DNA of 64,000 nt from Pusillimonas sp. DMV24BSW_D. GTDB taxonomy: Bacteria; Pseudomonadota; Gammaproteobacteria; Burkholderiales; Burkholderiaceae_B. Location: the NCBI RefSeq assembly GCF_011388195.1, contig NZ_CP049990.1, positions 1,736,001 to 1,800,000 on the forward strand. The letters are read 5' to 3'. The notes under the pieces were generated by a model, which was not told the origin of the DNA, did not search any database, and saw only the letters and a program-made list of their open reading frames with translations. Below, one piece after another: positions 3,636 through 15,632 of the stretch (position 1 is its first letter; each line of letters opens with the position of its first letter). A program made the translations under genes and the position numbers.

Positions 3636-5327
3636 GTGATTTATTTTGTTGCGTTGGTGGCGGGTCTTGCCGGCATTCTGTTTGGTTTCGATGAAGGGGT
3701 GATTGCCGGCGCGCTGTCGTCTTTGCGCGCCGAGTTTCAGATAACCTCGCTGGAAGAGGGCATGATGACAGCCGCCGTGCCGTTTGGCGCGCTGTTCGGT
3801 GCTTTATTGGCCGGGTCGTTGGCCGAGCGTTTCGGTCGTCGTCAAACCCTATTGTTTGCGTCTGTTTTGTTCGTGATCGGTGCGTTGTGCGCCGGCTTGG
3901 CGCCGGGGGTGTGGGTGCTGACAGGATGCCGGTTAGTGCTGGGCCTGGCGGTGGGGGTGGCCGCGATGGTGGCGCCTTTATATATCTCTGAAAGCGCGCC
4001 CAGTAAGCAGCGCGGTATGCTGGTTTCGGTTTATCAGCTTGCCATTACCATTGGTATTCTTTCGGCCTATCTGGTGAATTTCGCCTTCGACGATAAGTGG
4101 CGCACTATGTTTATGCTGGGCGCTTTGCCGGGTATTGCCCTGTTCCTTGGCATGGCGGTTTTGAAAGATACGCCGCGCTGGTACATTTTGAAAGGGCGTA
4201 CCGAAGACGCTCGACGTGCCCTGCAACGGGTCCGTGGTACGTCTGTAAGTCAGCATGAAATTGAATCAGAGCTTGGGCATATTAAAGCGGCGATGGACAC
4301 GAACGGTTCCGGTCGTTGGGCCGATTTGCTGGCACCTGTCGTCCGGCCGGCGTTCATTGTGGGTATCGGGCTCTTTTTCCTGCAACAGCTAAGTGGCATT
4401 AACGCCGTTATTTACTATGCGCCTACGGTTTTTCAAGAGGCCGGTTTTGATTCCGGCTCCACCCAGCTCATGGCCACGATTGGCGTCGGGGTGGTTAATG
4501 TACTCATGACGTTGGTTGGTATGTATCTTATCGACCGCATCGGGCGTCGTCGCCTCTTGTTCTTGGGGTTCGTGGGCACCGCGTTGGGTTTGGGCATGAT
4601 TGCCGTGGGTGCGGCAACCGGTATACAGTCGCTCGATATTCTTGCCGTCATCGGTATGGCGCTTTATATCGCGGCCTTTGCCGCCAGTATCGGTCCTTTG
4701 CCCTGGGTCATGATGGCTGAAATTTTTCCATCTCATGTGCGTGGCATGGCGATGGGCGTTACCTCGCTTACTAATTGGGGTTTTAATTTTCTGGTCGTGT
4801 TTTCGTTTCCGGTTCTGGTGTCGTCGCTTGGGCTGGGCGGGGTGTTCGGCATTTACGCGCTGGTCTGTGTTGCAGGCGTGATCTTTACCTATTTGCGTAT
4901 TCCTGAAACCAGCGGTGTTTCGCTCGAAGACATCGAAAAACATTTGTTGTCGGGCCGTCCGTTTCATATGTTGGGTCAGTTTGCACCACCGTCTATGCAC
5001 ACCGACGCACCGGACATTACCCAGGATCAGGCGCATGAAATGCTGACTCAACTTGTCGAGTTCAGTCCGTATCGTACCTATTTGCGCCCTTTAATTAACC
5101 GAATTAGCGAAGTGGGTTACGACAATCGTCAGGTTCGCACGGCGCTGCGCATTGTTTATGCGCGGGTCGGCGGCCGGCCGGGGCAAACGCTAACGCAGCA
5201 CGATATGGGGCCCGAACGCGAGACTTTCGTGGCGTTTTTTGAACATATCCGGTTTGCCTCGCCGTCGTTTTTGCAATGGGTTGGAGAGCCGCAAGTGGAC
5301 AACAAAGGAGATTCGCGTGGAGCGTGA
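3636..5327 (+). CDS. MFS sugar porter with extra C-terminal domain (second copy)
   Basis: The first 440 or so residues are a complete sugar porter: AERFGRRQTLL, LKDTPRWYILKGR, QQLSGINAVIYYAPTVF, DRIGRRRLLF and IPETSGVSLEDIE are all present. QLSGINAVIYYAP is typical of xylose, glucose and myo-inositol carriers. About 120 further residues follow, with no transmembrane helix and no family I recognise; they include LVEFSPYRTYLRPLINRI and FFEHIRFASPSFLQWVGEP. The usual family length is about 450-480, so 563 is long. The GTG start has GGGAGA upstream. The 3' end overlaps the GMC oxidoreductase gene by 11 bases, so the two proteins are probably translationally coupled. Confidence 0.85.
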   Translation: MIYFVALVAGLAGILFGFDEGVIAGALSSLRAEFQITSLEEGMMTAAVPFGALFGALLAGSLAERFGRRQTLLFASVLFVIGALCAGLAPGVWVLTGCRLVLGLAVGVAAMVAPLYISESAPSKQRGMLVSVYQLAITIGILSAYLVNFAFDDKWRTMFMLGALPGIALFLGMAVLKDTPRWYILKGRTEDARRALQRVRGTSVSQHEIESELGHIKAAMDTNGSGRWADLLAPVVRPAFIVGIGLFFLQQLSGINAVIYYAPTVFQEAGFDSGSTQLMATIGVGVVNVLMTLVGMYLIDRIGRRRLLFLGFVGTALGLGMIAVGAATGIQSLDILAVIGMALYIAAFAASIGPLPWVMMAEIFPSHVRGMAMGVTSLTNWGFNFLVVFSFPVLVSSLGLGGVFGIYALVCVAGVIFTYLRIPETSGVSLEDIEKHLLSGRPFHMLGQFAPPSMHTDAPDITQDQAHEMLTQLVEFSPYRTYLRPLINRISEVGYDNRQVRTALRIVYARVGGRPGQTLTQHDMGPERETFVAFFEHIRFASPSFLQWVGEPQVDNKGDSRGA

Positions 5328-6960
5328 CTATGATTGCGATGTGTGTATTGTAGGAACAGGCGCAGGGGGCGGTATTCTTGCTCATCAGTTGGCCAAGGCC
5401 GGTGTGAGTGTCTGGTCACTTGAACAAGGTCCGCGTCTTCAAGACGATTTCTTTAAAACGGTTATGCCACCGGGTCCGGGCTCCACTTTCGGTATAGGTC
5501 GGAACACTGTTTGGCCCAGCGATCCGCACGACAGCCTGTTTGTTCACCCCTTGTTTGCCGACGGTCAACACGGCTCAACAGCGCGTCCCCAAGGGGGCTT
5601 TCAGCATTTTCAGGTTTTGGCGGTTAATGGGCTGCAAAATTTATGGAATGGGGTTAGCGTGCGATTCGCCCGCGAAGATTTCAAGTATTGGCCAATTGAA
5701 GGCCAATCGCTGGATTCACATTACAGTGCGGTCGAAAAACTCATTACAGTCTGTGGAACACGTGAAGGTCTTGATGCGCTTCCGGATGGTGAGTTCATTG
5801 AGCCCAAACCTTTGCGTCCGGCCGATCACATGATTGTTGATGCCGTGCAAAAGCTGAAAGATGGCTATTCTTATGCGATTCCCAATCGTAAAGCCATTAA
5901 TACGCGTCAGGGGATGGCCACGTCCTGCGTGTCCACCGGCATTTGTACCTCTGGCTGCCCGGTAGGTTCGGTTTACAAGTTTACGGCACGCTTGTTGCCT
6001 GAAATTGCTACGCTGGCAAACTACCGTTTGGTCTCTAATGCAAAGGTGTTGCGTGTGTTGCGCAGTGCGCAACACAATAATCAAGTTGATGAAGTAGAGT
6101 ACCTCGACACGCAAACGCAGGAAAAGCGCCGGGTTCGGGCACGCGTGGTGGTGTTGGCAACGGGGGCCGTCGAAACGCCCCGTATTTTGTTCAATTCCGC
6201 AGATGCAACCGATCCCCAGGGTTTGGGTAACGCAGGCGATATGCTGGGTCGCGGCTTGCAGGATAATCCTAAGGTGGTGTTGTCCACTTCATTGCGTCGG
6301 CTGTGGGGCAAGCAGCGCGATTACGACATTGGTTACGGCGATTTGCTGATCTTAATGTCGCGCGGCAAGTTGGCCGATGGCGCCGAATTTCCGTTTATTG
6401 GTCACGCCATTCACGGTATTCCCGATGTCCCTCACTACCTGGGTCAAATGAAATGGATGCCGCCACGCATCAAGGAACGGATGGCAAAGTACCTGTTTTA
6501 CAGTTACGTCACGCTTGGGCTCTTTTGTGCCGGCGAGCGCAAACTCGATAATAAAGTCCGGCTCGCCGACACCACGGATCGTTACGGGGTGAGGCAGGTG
6601 GCGGTTGATTTCACCATGCCGGAATCGGTTCATGAGCAAATGGACGTCATGATGGCATGGGGCCGGAAAATTTTGAAGTCGGCCTCTTCCACAATGATTT
6701 ATGAAACCCGCGACAACAGTGGCACCGGTATTCATTATGCGGGTACCACCGCCATGTCGGCCGATGCGTCCGAAGGCGTGGTCGACGGCCATCTGCGCGT
6801 GCACGGTTTCGATAACCTGTACGTGTGTGATGGCGGCGTCGTTCCGCACCTGCCGGATAAGCACCTGACGCTGACCATTATGGCACTTTCACACCGTCTG
6901 GCTCAGCGCTTGTCGGTTCAGTTTCAGCCGCTTGAAGTGCAAACGGGGCAAACTGCCTGA
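5317..6960 (+). CDS. GMC-family flavin oxidoreductase
   Basis: A 547-residue glucose-methanol-choline type oxidoreductase. The GTG at 5317 is chosen because AAAGGAG ends six bases upstream and the protein then begins just before the FAD-binding GTGAGGG motif at residues 13-19. A cysteine-rich segment, CVSTGICTSGCPVG, lies near residue 210. The C-terminal active-site region reads IHYAGTTAMSAD and later PDKHLTLTIMALSHRLAQRL, where the second catalytic position appears to be His rather than the common Asn. The family oxidises alcohols or polyols to aldehydes or ketones. There is no obvious signal peptide or twin-arginine motif, so it may act in the cytoplasm. The overlap with the porter gene suggests it acts on the transported compound. 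Confidence 0.85.
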   Translation: MERDYDCDVCIVGTGAGGGILAHQLAKAGVSVWSLEQGPRLQDDFFKTVMPPGPGSTFGIGRNTVWPSDPHDSLFVHPLFADGQHGSTARPQGGFQHFQVLAVNGLQNLWNGVSVRFAREDFKYWPIEGQSLDSHYSAVEKLITVCGTREGLDALPDGEFIEPKPLRPADHMIVDAVQKLKDGYSYAIPNRKAINTRQGMATSCVSTGICTSGCPVGSVYKFTARLLPEIATLANYRLVSNAKVLRVLRSAQHNNQVDEVEYLDTQTQEKRRVRARVVVLATGAVETPRILFNSADATDPQGLGNAGDMLGRGLQDNPKVVLSTSLRRLWGKQRDYDIGYGDLLILMSRGKLADGAEFPFIGHAIHGIPDVPHYLGQMKWMPPRIKERMAKYLFYSYVTLGLFCAGERKLDNKVRLADTTDRYGVRQVAVDFTMPESVHEQMDVMMAWGRKILKSASSTMIYETRDNSGTGIHYAGTTAMSADASEGVVDGHLRVHGFDNLYVCDGGVVPHLPDKHLTLTIMALSHRLAQRLSVQFQPLEVQTGQTA

Positions 6961-6970
6961 GGGGCGTTTA

Positions 6971-8512
6971 ATGAAAAACAGCCCTGATTCGTTTCCGATT
7001 TCGCCGCATATTGCGGCTTTGCTTGAGCGTGCCGAAGCAGACCCGATTATTGATGAAGCGACAGGTCTGCAACAGGCACAACTCCTTCGACTTCAGTTGC
7101 TGAAAGCACAGTATGCGCATTTGCGGCGAGCGAATCAGGCGTTGTTAATTGTGATTGCCGGTATTGACGGTGTCGGTAAAGGCCGCTGCATTAATCTGTT
7201 GAATGAGTGGATGGATGCGCGTTATGTTCACACACTTGCTTTTGGTGAACCTGAAGTGCCCGCATCATTTATGCCACCGTTATGGCGCTATTGGCAACAT
7301 ATGCCTCCAAAAGGCACTACCGGAATTGTGTTCGGCTCGTGGTATCGGCCGTTATTTGAATTATTGAAGAAAAAGCGACCTGATTGGAAACAGGTGGAGG
7401 CGGTGACGCACGCCATTCGTGATTTCGAAACGACCTTAAGTCGTAACGGGGTACAGGTTGTTAAGCTTTGGTTTCACATGTCGAAGCAGGCCCAGCAGGC
7501 GCGCATAGATGGGTTGCTGGCTAACCCGGAGACTGCCTGGCAGGTAGAGTCGCTTGATTTCAAAGTACGTAAAAAATTCGATCGTGCGCGCCGTGCCGGG
7601 GCCGTGGCAATGAGCTTAACGCACGAACCGCGCATACCATGGCAAATTGTTCCTTCAGCGCATGATTTGTATCGGGTCATCAGCACAGCGCAAGCGGTAC
7701 TCAAAGGCTTACGTAAACGGCCGTCGCCGAGTTGGCGTCCGGTTTATCCGTTCTGTTCAGAGCCGCCCGAGTCATTGTCTTGTATATCGCCCGTCTCGCT
7801 CGACGGAATTGATTTCTCAGCCAAGCTCAAGAAAGCCGACTATCAAAATCAATTGCCTGCTTTGCAAGGTCGGTTGGCACGTATGTTGCGCGACACGAAA
7901 TTCAAAAATCGCTCACTGGTGCTGGTGTTTGAAGGCCAGGATGCTGCCGGTAAAGGGGGCGCGATTCGTCGTATTACGGCGGCATTGGATGCGCGCCAGT
8001 ACCGGGCCATTCCCATTTCAGCGCCCACCGACGAAGAGCGGGCGCGCCCTTATTTATGGCGTTTTTGGCGGCGGTTGCCCAAGCCTGGGCGAATCGCTAT
8101 TTTCGATCGTTCGTGGTACGGGCGTGTCTTGGTTGAACGGGTGGAGTCGTTTATAGAGCCGTTGCAGTGGGAGCATGCATACGACGAAATCAATCAGTTC
8201 GAACAGCAAATGATTGACAACGGTGCCATTGTGATCAAGTTCTGGCTGGCCATTACCAAAGAGGAACAACTGGAACGATTTCATGCGCGCCGGAAATCAC
8301 CTTTTAAGTCTTTCAAAATAACGCCTGAGGATTGGCGTAATCGGCGCAAATGGGATGCATACTGGGTAGCAACGAATGACATGCTGGGCCGTACCCATAC
8401 ATCTCTTAGCCCTTGGCATCTCGTGTCGGCCAACGATAAACACCACGCGCGGATTACGGTGCTTGAAACCGTGGCGGCCCGCCTGGAGTCCGAATTGCAG
8501 GGTGCAGGTTAA
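6971..8512 (+). CDS. pap: Polyphosphate:AMP phosphotransferase, two-domain PPK2
   Basis: A 513-residue protein with two tandem PPK2 kinase domains. The N-terminal one has a Walker A GIDGVGKGR near residue 64 but reads GSWYRPL where the Walker B motif should be, so it has lost the key Asp. The C-terminal one has GQDAAGKGG near residue 322 and an intact FDRSWYGR near residue 378. This is the pattern of class II PPK2 enzymes, which use polyphosphate to phosphorylate AMP to ADP; the second domain is then the catalytic one. The ATG at 6971 is preceded by GAGGGG. It follows the GMC gene by 10 bases and may be in the same transcript. Confidence 0.9.
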   Translation: MKNSPDSFPISPHIAALLERAEADPIIDEATGLQQAQLLRLQLLKAQYAHLRRANQALLIVIAGIDGVGKGRCINLLNEWMDARYVHTLAFGEPEVPASFMPPLWRYWQHMPPKGTTGIVFGSWYRPLFELLKKKRPDWKQVEAVTHAIRDFETTLSRNGVQVVKLWFHMSKQAQQARIDGLLANPETAWQVESLDFKVRKKFDRARRAGAVAMSLTHEPRIPWQIVPSAHDLYRVISTAQAVLKGLRKRPSPSWRPVYPFCSEPPESLSCISPVSLDGIDFSAKLKKADYQNQLPALQGRLARMLRDTKFKNRSLVLVFEGQDAAGKGGAIRRITAALDARQYRAIPISAPTDEERARPYLWRFWRRLPKPGRIAIFDRSWYGRVLVERVESFIEPLQWEHAYDEINQFEQQMIDNGAIVIKFWLAITKEEQLERFHARRKSPFKSFKITPEDWRNRRKWDAYWVATNDMLGRTHTSLSPWHLVSANDKHHARITVLETVAARLESELQGAG

Positions 8513-8513
8513 T

Positions 8514-8606
8514 ATGTCGTCCTTTGGTTATATGAAGCTTGGGCAAAGTATGATTGCCAAGACTTGGCCTGATGGGGTTTTAAGCTGGGTAAAGGTTTTA
8601 GAATGA
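8514..8606 (+). CDS. Possible 30-residue leader ORF before the ion channel gene
   Basis: A short frame starts at an ATG one base after the stop of the polyphosphate kinase gene. Its TGA overlaps the ATG of the ion channel gene (ATGA). The predicted peptide starts MSSFGYMKLGQSM and has no recognisable motif. The tight placement would allow translational coupling into the channel gene. The upstream Shine-Dalgarno match is weak (GCAGGT). It could equally be chance, since the interval is only 90 bases. Confidence 0.25.
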   Translation: MSSFGYMKLGQSMIAKTWPDGVLSWVKVLE

Positions 8607-9667
8607 GTGTTGCAAAATTCGGTCGGCATATTTTTTTTGCGTTGTTGTTCTGTATTGTGCTGCAGCCGGCGTGGGCTGATATTCCTCCGCCCAGTCCCGA
8701 CAAGCCAACGTTGGTGAATGTTGACCTGAAGCTTGAGGATATCAACGATATTAAGTTGGGCTCCGGCACCTTCGACTTAACTGCGCAGTTCGGTATGCGC
8801 TGGCATGATCCCCGTTTGGAGTTTGAACCGGAGCCCGGCAGACCGGGGCCGCGCATCTGGATGGGCGCGCGCGCGGAACAGCAGTTACAACAAATCTGGC
8901 ATCCGATTATCGACGTTAATGGCGAAAAGGGGTTGTCAGTTGCACGGGTGTACTCGCTTAGTATCTGGCCCGATGGTCATGTGGAGTTGCGTGAGAAGTT
9001 CTCGGCAACGCCGCGTTTCGATGGTGAGCTAACATGGTTTCCATTTGGTCATTTAACGTTAAGCCTTACCTTAACCAGCGCGGCAATGGACCGCGGGCAA
9101 ATCGAGTTTGAATTGGGTGAGCTGACACCGAAAGAGGATCTTGCAGCGGTTGATCGGGTTATTCACGGTAACTGGGTTCCCGAGGATGTGGGTTGGAGCG
9201 TTAGCGAACGTACTCGCATGGTGCATTCCAGCAACTTGTATCCACAAATCGACATTGATATTCGGGTGGAACATGATTTTCTTGACGGCGTTCACAAGGT
9301 TTTACTCCCTTTAATTGTTATCGCGTTGGCATCGTGGGGCCTGTTATGGCTCAACCCCACCGTGCAGCCTGCTTTTTCTTCACCAAGAATCGGGGGGACA
9401 ACAACGCTGATACTCACTACCATTGCCTTGAAGTTTGTCTTGGGGCGCGAGTTGCCGGTGGTGCATTACTTAACGCTGGCCGACGTGTTGTTTAACGTCA
9501 CCATCATTATGCTAACGATCAGTCTGTTAACTTCATGCCTGGTTGCCGCCGTGTTTACCGAAAGGGGGGCCGATGCGGCCCGCTCCCTGAATCGCATAAT
9601 AGGGCGGTTGTATCCCTTTATTTATGTCGTGTTGCTTGTTGTGTCGATCCCTTTATTTATTGAATGA
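8603..9667 (+). CDS. Prokaryotic pentameric ligand-gated ion channel (GLIC/ELIC-like)
   Basis: A 354-residue Cys-loop-receptor-like channel subunit. A signal peptide ends at AWA (residue 25). The extracellular beta domain shows WHDPRLEFEP near residue 67, IWHPIIDVNG, a PDGHVELREKFSA strand and the FPF turn of the pro-loop; like other prokaryotic members it lacks the disulphide cysteines. Four hydrophobic segments follow: M1 (LLPLIVIALASWGLLW), the pore-lining M2 (GGTTTLILTTIALKFVLGRE), M3 and M4. In this family five subunits form a channel in the inner membrane gated by protons or small amines. The ligand cannot be read from sequence. The 3' end overlaps the DMT transporter gene by four bases. 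Confidence 0.88.
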   Translation: MSVAKFGRHIFFALLFCIVLQPAWADIPPPSPDKPTLVNVDLKLEDINDIKLGSGTFDLTAQFGMRWHDPRLEFEPEPGRPGPRIWMGARAEQQLQQIWHPIIDVNGEKGLSVARVYSLSIWPDGHVELREKFSATPRFDGELTWFPFGHLTLSLTLTSAAMDRGQIEFELGELTPKEDLAAVDRVIHGNWVPEDVGWSVSERTRMVHSSNLYPQIDIDIRVEHDFLDGVHKVLLPLIVIALASWGLLWLNPTVQPAFSSPRIGGTTTLILTTIALKFVLGRELPVVHYLTLADVLFNVTIIMLTISLLTSCLVAAVFTERGADAARSLNRIIGRLYPFIYVVLLVVSIPLFIE

Positions 9668-10581
9668 TGCCGGTTAATTCTGCAAAGCGGTTTTGGGCAG
9701 GTTATTGTCTGGCGATTCTTGGCGCGATCTTCTTTTCGGCCAAGGGTGTTGTTGTCAAAATGACCTATCTTTACGAAGGGGTCGATGCCGTTACGATTAT
9801 CGGCTTCAGAATGCTTCTTTCTGGGCCTATCTTTCTTGCGGTTGCTGCATACCAGGCGAACAAGGCGCGTAAAGGATTAATCCCGCGTCTGACCGTGCGT
9901 CAGCGCTGGCAAATTGTGCTGCTTGGCTTCATCGGTTATTACTTATCCAGTTTTCTCGCATTCCTGGGCCTGCAGACGATTTCGGCCGGTTTGGAGCGCG
10001 TGGTGTTGTACCTTTCGCCAACTTTCGTCCTGCTTATCACTGCATTGTATTTCAAGCGCCCGATTGCGCCGCGCCAGTGGTTGGCGCTGGCCTTATCATA
10101 CGCAGGCGTTGTTTTTGTGTTCTTGCACGACTTATCGTTTGCCGGTCCGGCCGTGATTGTCGGCGCCGGGTTTGTGCTGGCGTCGGCCTTGTGTTACTCG
10201 GTATATTTGATTGGCTCGGCCGAAATTATCAAAGTGGTTGGGGCGACACGCCTGGTTGCCTATGCAATGTCAGTATCGGCTGCCTTTACAATTGCGCAGT
10301 TTTTCTGGGTCCATTCGTGGGCGGGCCTGCAACAGCCCTGGCCGGTTTATCAGTTATCTTTGATTCATGCCACGTTGAACACGGTTGCGCCCACATTCAT
10401 GATTATGTGGGCCGTGGCTCGAATCGGAGCACCTTTAACGTCACAGCTTGGCCTTATCGGCCCCGTTTCGGTATTGTTTTTGGCGGCCTGGTTGCTGGGT
10501 GAGCCCATTACTGTGCTGCAACTTATTGGTACTGCCTTTGTGTTAACCGGTGTGATCGTACTGGGCCGGGGAAGGCGCTAG
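9664..10581 (+). CDS. EamA/DMT-superfamily transporter
   Basis: A 305-residue protein with about ten hydrophobic helices arranged as two EamA repeats; the first begins GAIFFSAKGVVVKMTY and the second GAGFVLASALCYSVYL. These proteins export amino acids, metabolites or other small solutes across the inner membrane. The start overlaps the stop of the ion channel gene, so they are co-translated. Two adjacent ATG codons at 9664 and 9667 are possible starts. The substrate is unknown. Pairing with a ligand-gated channel gene may point to a shared solute or stress, but this is inference. Confidence 0.8.
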   Translation: MMPVNSAKRFWAGYCLAILGAIFFSAKGVVVKMTYLYEGVDAVTIIGFRMLLSGPIFLAVAAYQANKARKGLIPRLTVRQRWQIVLLGFIGYYLSSFLAFLGLQTISAGLERVVLYLSPTFVLLITALYFKRPIAPRQWLALALSYAGVVFVFLHDLSFAGPAVIVGAGFVLASALCYSVYLIGSAEIIKVVGATRLVAYAMSVSAAFTIAQFFWVHSWAGLQQPWPVYQLSLIHATLNTVAPTFMIMWAVARIGAPLTSQLGLIGPVSVLFLAAWLLGEPITVLQLIGTAFVLTGVIVLGRGRR

Positions 10582-10978: not shown

Positions 10979-12895
10979 TCAGGCCGGCAGGTCGTTCGAT
11001 ATCGACCACTGACCGTTTCCTTTTAAGTTAAGTTGTTTGGCATGATGTCGAACCAGTGTACTGCGATGTCCGACGCTAATTAAGACGGTATCCGGTAAAT
11101 GCCGGCGAATCAAGCGGTACATGGCGTCTTCCAGGCCTTCGTCCATTGCGGAAGTGGCTTCATCCAGGAAAGCAACTTTTGGGCGCGCCACCATCAGCCG
11201 ACCGAACCCCAGCCGTTGTTGTTCACCCAACGACAAAATCCGGCTCCAGTCATTCACCTCATCGAGCCGGTCAGTTAAATGGCCCAGTTGAATTTGTTCC
11301 AGTATTTCGCGTGCCTGGGGGTCTTGATGCGTCGCCAAAGGGGTGACTGTGGAGGGAGTTTCGACCTGCTCATCCAGATTCTGGGGTGCTGAGCCGGAAC
11401 TTGCCACTGCCGCCTCTTTCTGTTCTTCGCGGTCGATAAACAGGCCTTCCCGCGTGCTGACTATGTGCGGATAATACAAAGCCTGGCGCAGTGAGCCCAG
11501 TGGCAAGTACGGTTTTTGTGCCAGGAATAGCAGGTGGTCTTGAGGCCGTTCGATATCACCCTCACAGAAAGGCCACAGGCCGGCAATGGCACGTAATAGC
11601 GTTGTTTTGCCCGAGCCGGATGGCCCGCGAGTAAGCAGGGCATCGCCCGGCTTAAGGGAGAGGTCGAGTTTGTCTATCAGCAACCGGTTGTTGGGAGTGT
11701 GTACCGTTAAATTTCGGATGGTAAGGTGGTCTGCATGGTCATTAAGGTTGGGGCGGGGTAATTGCTGCGCCTCATCAATCGCCCGGTTGAATCCGGTTAG
11801 ACGGTCGAGTGTTGCACGGTACGATGCGAACTCATCGTAGGCATTGCGGAAAAATGAAAGATTGTCTTGCAGGCGCCCGAATGCCTGTGCTGTCTGCATC
11901 AGATCGCCCAGCGTGATTTGCTCGGAGAAGAAGCGTTTGGCCTGAATAATGAATGGAAAAACAACGGCCGCCTGCGTAACCGAAAAGTTAAAACCCAAAA
12001 ACTTCAATGATCGATACACAATCGCCCAGGCATTGCTGATCACTTGCGCAAATCGGCCGCGTAGGAGCGTGCTTTCCACTTTTTCCCCGGCGTAGAAAGC
12101 AATACTTTCTGAATATTCGCGTAACCTGACCAGTGCGTAACGATAGTCGGCATTGAAACGTTCATTCAAAAAGTTCAGCATGATCAACGGTCGGCCGATT
12201 CGAATTGCCAATAGGGTGGCCACCAAAACATAAATAAAAACCAGAAATACCATGGCACGGGGAATTTCAACGCCAAACAAGCCCAGCGGCCCCGACAAGC
12301 CCCATAAAATAAGGGTAAAGGCAACCGTTGATACCAGTGCGTCGACCACGCCCATGGACAGCGTCAGTGACGACTGCACGAATACCGTGACGTCGTATTG
12401 AATACGTTGGTCGGGGTTATCGACGCCTTTTTCCAGGTGCTGGGTGCGATAGTAGGATTGGCGGTCGAGCCAACGGCCAAGCAATTGGTTGTTCAGCCAG
12501 GTTCGCCAATGAATTGAAAATGCCTGCTGGACATAGTAGTCGAGTAGCGATCGCAAAACATGGACGGTGGCCAGGGCTGCAAACAACCACATTGCCAGCC
12601 AGAATGCCGCTTCATTCAAATCCTGAAGGGCGCTGTACATGGTGTTATACCAGTTTGAAAACAACACCTGTAAACGCACGCCGGCCAGGGTCAGGAGCAG
12701 AATAAAAGCAATGGTAAGAATGGGTTTCCAACTGCGTCGGGGGGAAAAATAGCCACCCGAAAGTTGCCAGAATTGACGCCCCCACACTGTGCGACGTGCC
12801 AGAAACCAAACCGTTAAACCGAAGCATATCAGCGTAACGACATATACTTGTGAAAGCCATATTGCACTGTCGATCAGTTCCTGCGTCCAGTTCAT
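10979..12895 (-). CDS. SbmA/BacA-like ABC transporter with fused ATPase (YddA type)
   Basis: A 638-residue half transporter. The first 350 or so residues form a six-helix domain resembling SbmA/BacA and the peroxisomal ABCD family (NWYNTMYSALQDLNEAAFW, RTWLNNQLLGRWLDRQSYY, NPDQRIQYDV). The ATPase domain has Walker A GPSGSGKTT near residue 425, signature LSLGEQQRLGFGR near 553 and Walker B VAFLDEATSAMDEG. Between the Q-loop and the signature there is an unusual polar insert of about 45 residues rich in Glu, Ser and Thr. Relatives import peptides or cobalamin-like compounds across the inner membrane; the substrate here is not known. Confidence 0.85.
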   Translation of the reverse strand: MNWTQELIDSAIWLSQVYVVTLICFGLTVWFLARRTVWGRQFWQLSGGYFSPRRSWKPILTIAFILLLTLAGVRLQVLFSNWYNTMYSALQDLNEAAFWLAMWLFAALATVHVLRSLLDYYVQQAFSIHWRTWLNNQLLGRWLDRQSYYRTQHLEKGVDNPDQRIQYDVTVFVQSSLTLSMGVVDALVSTVAFTLILWGLSGPLGLFGVEIPRAMVFLVFIYVLVATLLAIRIGRPLIMLNFLNERFNADYRYALVRLREYSESIAFYAGEKVESTLLRGRFAQVISNAWAIVYRSLKFLGFNFSVTQAAVVFPFIIQAKRFFSEQITLGDLMQTAQAFGRLQDNLSFFRNAYDEFASYRATLDRLTGFNRAIDEAQQLPRPNLNDHADHLTIRNLTVHTPNNRLLIDKLDLSLKPGDALLTRGPSGSGKTTLLRAIAGLWPFCEGDIERPQDHLLFLAQKPYLPLGSLRQALYYPHIVSTREGLFIDREEQKEAAVASSGSAPQNLDEQVETPSTVTPLATHQDPQAREILEQIQLGHLTDRLDEVNDWSRILSLGEQQRLGFGRLMVARPKVAFLDEATSAMDEGLEDAMYRLIRRHLPDTVLISVGHRSTLVRHHAKQLNLKGNGQWSISNDLPA

Positions 12896-13005: not shown

Positions 13006-13380
13006 ATGCCATACGTCACCATTACCACCACTTCAGGTTTGAACAATGTTCAGAAAAAGCAGCTGATTGAAAAATCCAGCGATGCCATTGTTCAGGTTTT
13101 GGGTTCCGCTTTGCCTTCAGTCCGCGTGATGTTACATGAATTGCCGGAAGGCCACTACCTGGATGGTGGGCAATGGGATGCGCCGGGCATTATTTTCCAC
13201 GTCGACATGATTGAAGGGCGTACGGAAGAACAGAAAGCCGAGTTACTGGCGGCGTTTGGCAAGCTGGCCAACGAAGTAACAGGTTATTCTCAAGACCAGA
13301 TTCACGGCATTTTGCATGACATTCTGAAAACGAATATTCGTGTAAAAGGCGGGCTTACCGCCAAGCAAGCCGGCCGCTAA
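13006..13380 (+). CDS. Fused-dimer tautomerase (4-oxalocrotonate tautomerase superfamily)
   Basis: A 124-residue protein made of two 4-OT-like units in tandem. The first begins MPYVTITTTSGL, giving the catalytic N-terminal proline after removal of Met. The second starts near residue 64 (IIFHVDMIEGRTEEQKAELL) and lacks its own terminal proline, as is usual in fused forms. The superfamily includes tautomerases, dehalogenases and decarboxylases; the real substrate cannot be told. AAAGGG lies upstream of the ATG. It is divergent from the ABC transporter gene and ends shortly before a terminator. Confidence 0.75.
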   Translation: MPYVTITTTSGLNNVQKKQLIEKSSDAIVQVLGSALPSVRVMLHELPEGHYLDGGQWDAPGIIFHVDMIEGRTEEQKAELLAAFGKLANEVTGYSQDQIHGILHDILKTNIRVKGGLTAKQAGR

Positions 13381-14125: not shown

Positions 14126-15412
14126 TTACGAGGTAATGCGTGTTGCAGCGCTGCGCGTGCCAAAGGCGAGTAAAAAGGTAAACGCCAAGGTTGGCAGTGC
14201 TGAGCCCAGGCCCGGCACCCAATGTCCTACACTGTGGTAGCACACAATGCCCAATATCCAGATTGTTGCAGCCGACCAGTCGGCCCGTTTATTGTTGTCT
14301 GCAATCGCACCCGTTCCAATACCGTGGCGCCCCAGAATCACGCCGTAAAGGGGTACGAAAATGGAACTTAACATCAGTAGAAACGGTTCAAGCGTGTGAA
14401 TGGGTAAAACCGTGGCGAACACCATGCTGATAACCGCCAGCGTCATGCCCCAGCGCCTGATACTCCATTTTGGCAACAAACTATGGGTGGAGACCGACCC
14501 CGAATACAGGTCGCCGTAGGCGTTGTCCAGCTCATCGATCATGATCAGACCCAGTGCAACCAAGCCGCCTTGCGCCAGCAAAAGCGCGTTAACCAGACCT
14601 GCATCGGGCTCTGCAACACTGACGATGATGACCCCCAGGCTGTAGCACCAGATATTGGCAATGGCGTACCCCAACCAGGTGCCGCCCAGGGCACCTTTCG
14701 TGCTGCGGCCGTGGCGTGCGTAGTCGGCTACTAGCGGCAGCCAGGAAATAGGCATTGCAATGACCAGATCCATGGCCGAGAACAGCCCCATTTGGCCGTT
14801 ACCCGGCCGATCCCAAACAGCGCTCAAGCCTTGTTCATTTAGCAACACCAGGAATTGCCAGCTAAGCCACAGTAAGGACAAAATGACCAGAGGCAGGGCA
14901 AATCGCGCAATGAGTTTGCGTACCAGCTTAATCATGGATCCTGCCAGCAATGCCAGCAGAATAGCCCCCCAAAACAGGGTGATTACAATGACGCCCAAGG
15001 TGCCGCTCAACTCCAGCCCGAAAGCCTGATTTGCAATGGCGGTGGTACCTTCTCGCATAATCACCATTTCGAAGGTGGTCCAGCCCAGAAGCTGCACAAT
15101 ATTCAGAATGACAGGTAGACGAGCGAAATGACTGCCGTACGTGCGGTGTATCAACCCCGCACTCGACAATCCACTGCGGCAACCGGTTCGGGCAACCCAG
15201 GCGAGCAGGCCGGCGCCAATAATCGAGCCGCAGATAATTGCGATAGCGGCGTCGCGCGTGCCCACTGATGGGACAAGGTAGGCCCCCACTTGCATGACCA
15301 ACAGTCCAACGCCCAGGCTGAACCATAGTGAAGCATGTTCGTGCCAGCCGAAAACGCGGTCGGATTCGGGAACAGGGGTAAGGGCCTGGTTGGTTGAAGA
15401 AGAGGTGTTCAT
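14126..15412 (-). CDS. cytX: NCS1-type transporter, probable hydroxymethylpyrimidine permease CytX
   Basis: A 428-residue, twelve-helix permease of the cytosine/purine NCS1 family; the segment GWHEHASLWFSLGVGLLVMQVGAYLVP and the later LLGWTTFEMVIMREGT fit the CytX branch. It is preceded by a TPP riboswitch, which ties it to thiamine supply: CytX is predicted to import the thiamine pyrimidine precursor hydroxymethylpyrimidine. The ATG at 15412 is chosen; a longer frame to 15475 would run through the riboswitch expression platform and has no plausible ribosome site. The Shine-Dalgarno GGAAAG lies within a stem that can hide it. Other thiamine genes are not in the window. Confidence 0.8.
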   Translation of the reverse strand: MNTSSSTNQALTPVPESDRVFGWHEHASLWFSLGVGLLVMQVGAYLVPSVGTRDAAIAIICGSIIGAGLLAWVARTGCRSGLSSAGLIHRTYGSHFARLPVILNIVQLLGWTTFEMVIMREGTTAIANQAFGLELSGTLGVIVITLFWGAILLALLAGSMIKLVRKLIARFALPLVILSLLWLSWQFLVLLNEQGLSAVWDRPGNGQMGLFSAMDLVIAMPISWLPLVADYARHGRSTKGALGGTWLGYAIANIWCYSLGVIIVSVAEPDAGLVNALLLAQGGLVALGLIMIDELDNAYGDLYSGSVSTHSLLPKWSIRRWGMTLAVISMVFATVLPIHTLEPFLLMLSSIFVPLYGVILGRHGIGTGAIADNNKRADWSAATIWILGIVCYHSVGHWVPGLGSALPTLAFTFLLAFGTRSAATRITS

Positions 15413-15417
15413 AGCGG

Positions 15418-15464
15418 GCAACTTTCCAAAAATGCAGGGGCGACAGCCCCGCCAGGAAAGTTGC
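15418..15464 (-). promoter_or_regulatory. Shine-Dalgarno-sequestering hairpin of the cytX riboswitch
   Basis: On the minus strand GCAACTTTCC (15464-15455) and GGAAAGTTGC (15427-15418) are perfect complements, enclosing a GGGGC/GCCCC stem. The right arm contains the GGAAAG ribosome-binding site of cytX. CTTTCCTG of the left arm is also complementary to CAGGAAAG at the 3' end of the TPP aptamer, which gives an alternative pairing. This is the layout of a translation-off switch. Confidence 0.7.
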
Positions 15465-15484
15465 ACGAATGCCATTCAAGACGA

Positions 15485-15572
15485 AGGTCGCTTTCCTGCG
15501 CGAGGATGATCTCAACAGGTTCCAAGGGACTCTCTCAGACGCCTACGGTAAATGACCGGGCGACACCCCTAG
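15485..15572 (-). promoter_or_regulatory. TPP riboswitch (THI element)
   Basis: Read on the minus strand, the conserved blocks appear in order: AGGGGTG, then a variable arm, CTGAGA, GTCCCTTGGAACCTG, and a 3' block with CGCGCAGGAAAGCGA. These match the THI-box aptamer that binds thiamine pyrophosphate and turns genes off when it is abundant. It lies directly upstream of the cytX gene. Confidence 0.9.
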
Positions 15573-15632
15573 CGATAACGTGGCAAATTGTACCGATTTC
15601 AGAGAAAAAAGAAAGTGTTTCTGAAAAAGGAG

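Follow-up and report, generated by a model that had tools for sequence, protein, structure and literature searches.

Within a 64,000-nucleotide stretch of the genome of Pusillimonas sp. DMV24BSW_D (contig NZ_CP049990.1, positions 1,736,001 to 1,800,000; hereafter the window), one gene, at 8603-9667 (+), encodes a subunit of a pentameric ligand-gated ion channel (pLGIC) in which the Asp of the Pro-loop and the Arg of the segment preceding the first membrane helix (pre-M1), partners in a salt bridge, are both replaced. Orthologues of this channel were found in 10 of the 268 genomes of its family that were examined, the window's genome among the ten. Judged from their alignment, the loss of this hinge is the defining peculiarity of the clade, a feature overlooked when the window was read earlier from its letters alone (the sequence-only reading). 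We consider it rather probable that these proteins, spread over four genera of one family among the genomes examined, make up a divergent clade of pLGICs whose coupling interface has been rewired, the channel probably being anion-permeable or weakly selective.

The gene product, 354 amino acids long, has a Neur_chan_LBD extracellular domain and a four-helix pore domain, an assignment that relies on homology and on the orthologues in nine other genomes. The Pfam Neur_chan_LBD model matches it with an E value of 2.8e-12 (47 bits, with a gathering cut-off of 26). It is homologous over its full length, in both domains, to GLIC, the proton-gated channel of Gloeobacter violaceus; GLIC chains in the PDB were matched at ~1e-17 with the single sequence and at ~1e-24 with a family profile covering both domains. 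The match to NCBIfam LGIC_1 (NF033918; E 9e-25, 87.7 bits) falls under the curated cut-off of 500 bits, and by this comparison the channel belongs to the same superfamily as LGIC_1 but lies outside that subfamily. The N-terminus, MSVAKFGRHIFFALLFCIVLQPAWA followed by D, reads as a signal peptide (residues 1-25, 8603-8677 (+), cut predicted after AWA). In the family-profile comparison the mature N-terminus, DIPPPSPDKP, aligns to the mature start of GLIC, to which it is similar, and the Pro-loop FPF/YPF, the M1 Pro and the Leu-Pro that ends M2 are also common to both channels. Pro-loop Pro147, beta9 Trp191, M1 Pro236 and M2-M3 Pro285 are invariant in all ten clade members, and these are four of the seven positions in Table 1 of Jaiteh et al. 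(PMC4795631). No Cys lies near residues 135-160, so that the cysteines of the animal Cys-loop are lacking. Homology so far past chance indicates that the protein is a genuine bacterial pLGIC, a relative of brain neurotransmitter-gated channels; it is the sole Neur_chan_LBD gene in its 3.19-Mb genome. The sequence-only reading had already recognised this open reading frame as a bacterial pLGIC with a signal peptide, and both calls were borne out, as were its landmarks WHDPRL (67-72), IWHP (98-101) and FPF (146-148).

We compared the hinge region of the ten clade members with that of 17 other pLGICs (GLIC, the amine-gated ELIC of Dickeya/Erwinia and 15 bacterial sequences). The Pro-loop, F146-P147-F148-G149 (9038-9049 (+)), carries Gly149 in place of the Asp of the FPxD motif; Gly stands here in 10 of 10 clade members and Asp in 17 of 17 others. 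In pre-M1 and the start of M1, HDFLDGVHKVLLP (residues 224-236, 9272-9310 (+)), the alignment places His224 at the signature pre-M1 Arg, with M1 Pro236 retained. This position is His in nine clade members and Tyr in one, versus Arg in all 17 others. The third partner of the GLIC hinge, D32 in the beta1-beta2 turn, is Leu52 in all ten and mostly Asp or Glu in the other pLGICs, and the GLIC proton sensor E35 corresponds to Gly55; in the turn (8756-8767 (+)) Leu52 and Gly55 are both invariant among the ten relatives. Thus the D32-R192-D122 triad and E35 of GLIC stand against L52, H224, G149 and G55 in the window channel, and D122 and R199 of ELIC are likewise absent. Furthermore, the loop-A Asn found in 17 of 17 other pLGICs is replaced by Gly107 in nine of the ten, and the Gln of FPxDxQ (14 of 17 others) by Leu151 in all ten. 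The alignment is unambiguous here, as FPFG is read directly and not a single gap falls between residue 224 and Pro236. New charged or polar residues, invariant or nearly so, line the same interface, both in pre-M1/M1 (D225, D228, K232) and in the M2-M3 loop (H288).

It is documented that among 561 pLGICs the Pro of the Pro-loop motif F/YPxD occurs in 100%, its Asp in 93% and the pre-M1 Arg in 94% (Jaiteh et al. 2016, PMC4795631), and that this Asp and Arg are salt-bridged (PMC4795631). Asp mutants of both ELIC and GLIC fail to activate, while mutating the Arg prevents activation in ELIC and expression in GLIC (PMC4778918); GLIC D122N displays neither function nor expression (PMC5760087). The clade has Gly149 and His/Tyr224 where this salt bridge would form. 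Its membership in the superfamily by homology stands, because some 6-7% of pLGICs are without the Asp or the Arg anyway.

The M1-M2 linker and M2 helix span N251-E283 (9353-9451 (+)). Numbered backwards, with no gap, from its Leu-Pro (22'-23'), the M2 of the window channel reads S-2' P-1' R0' I G G T T T6' L I L9' T T I A13' L K15' F16'. S-2', P-1' and R0' occur in all ten clade members, and from N251 to R282 the window channel has no acidic residue, the first being E283 at 21'; its M1-M2 linker exceeds that of most relatives compared by 4-6 residues. GLIC has E-2' and N0' where the window channel has S-2' and R0'. T6', L9', A13', F16' and Arg0' of ELIC (sequence verified against 2yn6) are identical in the window channel, with E-1' changed to Pro and Q2' to Gly. 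The claim of the sequence-only reading that the M2 lining is unlike either model channel therefore fails, as 6', 9', 13' and 16' are those of ELIC. The run of Thr to which that claim referred was rejected as a special feature, since 4' (T/M/I/Y) and 5' (T/V/I) vary among the relatives; Thr6' and Thr10' are invariant.

When the pore domain alone was searched, the best matches were to animal anion Cys-loop receptors, a group comprising GlyR, GABA-A, GluCl and the insect pH-gated chloride channel: GABA-A gamma2 (5e-5), the pH-gated chloride channel (7e-5) and GluCl (1e-3) ranked ahead of ELIC (0.013). These receptors share with the window channel Arg0', Gly2', Thr6', Leu9', Thr10' and an M2 mouth free of acids. 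Unlike them, the window channel has no Cys-loop cysteines, no long M3-M4 loop and neither the signature Asp nor the Arg, and its Pro stands at -1' rather than at -2'. A basic residue before M2 led Tasneem et al. in 2004 to predict anion-type bacterial 'ART-LGICs' (PMC549065), whose M2 feature is similar to that of the window channel. Arg0' by itself was rejected as proof of anion selectivity, Arg or Lys at 0' being general in pLGICs (PMC4795631). The clade has the motif of anion-selective pLGICs, with no acidic ring at -2'/-1' and Arg or Lys at 0'. Since Arg0' stands without an acidic residue at the cytoplasmic mouth, an anion-permeable pore is possible; the pore is probably anion-permeable or weakly selective, lacking the charge filter found in GLIC and in ELIC, and we infer an anion preference with moderate confidence.

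Eight of the ten clade members have an aromatic residue where ELIC has F188. F19, Y38, E131, P132 and F133, which we take to be agonist-site residues of ELIC, are not conserved in the clade according to the alignment, and an aromatic amine cage of the ELIC type was sought and not found, Y38, E131, P132 and F133 not being kept. Lys132 (10/10) falls at the position of GLIC Arg105, presumably part of the carboxylate site of GLIC, and R130 (9/10) lies nearby; a carboxylate-bearing or zwitterionic solute would be our guess for the ligand.

The carriers are all five Neopusillimonas genomes examined and five genomes from three other genera. The nine orthologues outside the window's genome are 46-98% identical to the window channel, the closest being that of Neopusillimonas maritima 17-4A (98%). 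Samples of the order, phylum and class, searched with a profile or the Pfam family, yielded distant pLGICs only and no further orthologue; likewise, no match to the channel was obtained among 72,556 plasmid records, and none was found in viral contigs. In the channel tree the ten members form a single clade (support 1.0), within which the window channel pairs with that of genome G123, of another genus (support 0.995), and not with those at the same locus in G001 and G003, of its own genus. Because of this grouping, the channel has likely moved horizontally at least once. For L014:8006-9181 (-) and window:8603-9667 the same window/G123 grouping points to a likely transfer of the channel alone. 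GC content within the window bears no clear mark of recent transfer. The three closest channel pairs gave dN/dS values of 0.043, 0.103 and 0.157, demonstrating that the clade is under purifying selection. Mean pairwise identity among the channels is highest in the M2-M3 loop (0.84), followed by M2 (0.78), M1 (0.72) and the extracellular domain (0.54). An idle pore is not expected to yield such low dN/dS together with such conservation of M2 and the M2-M3 loop.

The channel would work as a homopentamer in the inner membrane, with its ligand-binding domain placed by homology in the periplasm. The GLIC hinge running from D32 through R192 to D122 (beta1-beta2 turn, pre-M1, Pro-loop) is replaced by L52, H224 and G149, and D225, D228, K232 and H288 probably take over coupling through substitute interactions. 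A periplasmic solute or protons may bind the extracellular domain, which would then move and pull the M2-M3 loop via the rewired interface, opening the Leu9'/Phe16' gate and letting ions pass. The resulting flux would alter membrane potential or ion balance upon a solute signal. Put in full, the proposal is of a natural clade of pLGICs whose gating dispenses with the Asp-Arg(-Asp) hinge, considered essential for coupling, and relies instead on a replacement network in pre-M1 and the M2-M3 loop, and whose pore conducts anions; we advance it tentatively and regard it as plausible but somewhat doubtful.

The neighbourhood bears on what the channel may do. A gene for a DMT/EamA-family transporter (9664-10581 (+)) follows it, and a gene for a two-domain PPK2-type polyphosphate:AMP phosphotransferase (6974-8512 (+)) precedes it. 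The sequence-only reading had correctly described both neighbours and the four-base overlap of the channel and DMT genes. The overlap is ATGA at 9664-9667, and the PPK2, a TIGR03708 match above cut-off, ends 90 bp upstream. That reading also proposed that the channel may sense a solute handled by the DMT; in the model considered here, the DMT exports this solute and the two work as a pair. The proposal draws on the finding that the two genes are adjacent, in the same order and on the same strand, in five of the ten carriers and in two different neighbourhoods, namely in four Neopusillimonas genomes and in G238, of another genus. Furthermore, the DMTs located next to a channel group together in a single clade (support 0.991), with a DMT from a channel-less genome lying just outside. 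The remaining carriers speak against it. Genomes G004, G123, G237 and G239 carry the channel without an orthologous DMT at E <= 1e-70, and in G028 the DMT orthologue is on a different contig. Moreover, the DMT is present in 141 of the 268 family genomes, yet just 6 of these 141 carry the channel, and several channel-less relatives hold it in a similar locus, near SirB, an ABC transporter and a tautomerase. Adjacency is kept in half of the carriers and the working pair is very unlikely; the absence of the pairing from close relatives, which the sequence-only reading had named as counting against itself, was observed in part, with five of the ten carriers lacking it. In the simplest reading the channel probably entered a pre-existing DMT locus, because channel-less genomes have the DMT near the same SirB, ABC transporter and tautomerase genes. 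A single origin of the pairing, followed by several losses in which the channel survived, is possible. Together, these results suggest an association that is real but loose rather than obligate, with a functional link to the exporter possible but weak. The order PPK2-channel-DMT occurs in four Neopusillimonas genomes, the fifth, G004, having PPK2-channel-SirB without the DMT; a partnership with PPK2 was dropped, as its adjacency is confined to the genus. No other neighbour recurs among G123, G028, G237 and G239, where a TctC receptor and an ABC_sub_bind protein, located close to two of the channels, are not shared.

The exporter next door in five carriers also fits a non-conducting sensor, whose pentamer would be kept for ligand binding or for control of the neighbouring exporter, not for ion flux; interface mutants of ELIC and GLIC do not activate, yet ligand binding is not prevented (PMC4778918). 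We hold this to be improbable, as four carriers have no such exporter and the most conserved stretches of the protein are M2 and the M2-M3 loop, unexpected with an idle pore. An ordinary channel of the ELIC/GLIC type, in which the Asp and Arg changes are tolerated drift, coupling is the usual one and selectivity is cationic or mixed, is less easily set aside, although we still judge it unlikely. The pore-facing 6', 9', 13' and 16' residues match those of ELIC, the Asp is absent from about 7% of pLGICs and the Arg from 6% (PMC4795631), and selectivity in prokaryotic pLGICs is hard to predict. Drift, however, would leave variability, whereas the Asp, the Arg, the acid of the beta1-beta2 turn, the Asn of loop A and the Gln of FPxDxQ are all replaced together, and the replacements are near-invariant in relatives that share 45-64% identity with the window protein. 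Several points weigh against a rewired, anion-permeable channel as well. The M2 motif is generally insufficient to determine selectivity in prokaryotes, and Arg or Lys at 0' is present in 79% of all pLGICs (PMC4795631); Pro-1' is also found in four other bacterial channels of the aligned sample. Loss of the Asp and Arg could also be the mark of a pLGIC-like protein that has ceased to gate, and an AlphaFold monomer model built from two sequences (mean pLDDT 37, pTM 0.30) was uninformative about the fold and was not used.

Several other genes were noted in the vicinity. A sugar-porter MFS gene (3636-5327 (+)) and then a GMC oxidoreductase gene (5239-6960 (+)) lie directly upstream of PPK2; G002 keeps the pair, whereas G001 and G003 do not have it at this position. 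The ABC transporter (10979-12895 (-)) combines membrane and ATPase parts in one chain and matches models of SbmA/BacA-like and peroxisomal fatty-acyl transporters. The gene at 13006-13380 (+) encodes a 124-residue protein of two tandem tautomerase (4-oxalocrotonate tautomerase-like) units, and ABC transporter, SirB and tautomerase form a block kept in several related genomes. A thiamine pyrophosphate (TPP) riboswitch (RF00059, 55.3 bits; 15476-15580 (-)) precedes a gene for a 449-residue multi-helix permease (14126-15475 (-)), suggesting a thiamine-precursor (CytX-like) transporter.

In neurotransmitter-gated channels the salt bridge between the Pro-loop Asp and the pre-M1 Arg is counted as part of the shared core that couples binding to gating, and a single mutation in it is enough to silence either bacterial model channel. 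No characterised anion-type prokaryotic pLGIC was found in the literature searched; if the pore is anion-selective, the clade would bear out the 2004 prediction of such members. Should the clade prove both to gate without the hinge and to conduct anions, it would represent a chloride-type pLGIC of bacteria in which binding is coupled to gating in a second way. A clade without either partner, under strong selection and with a conserved pore, offers a natural test of whether the bridge is required or is one solution among others.
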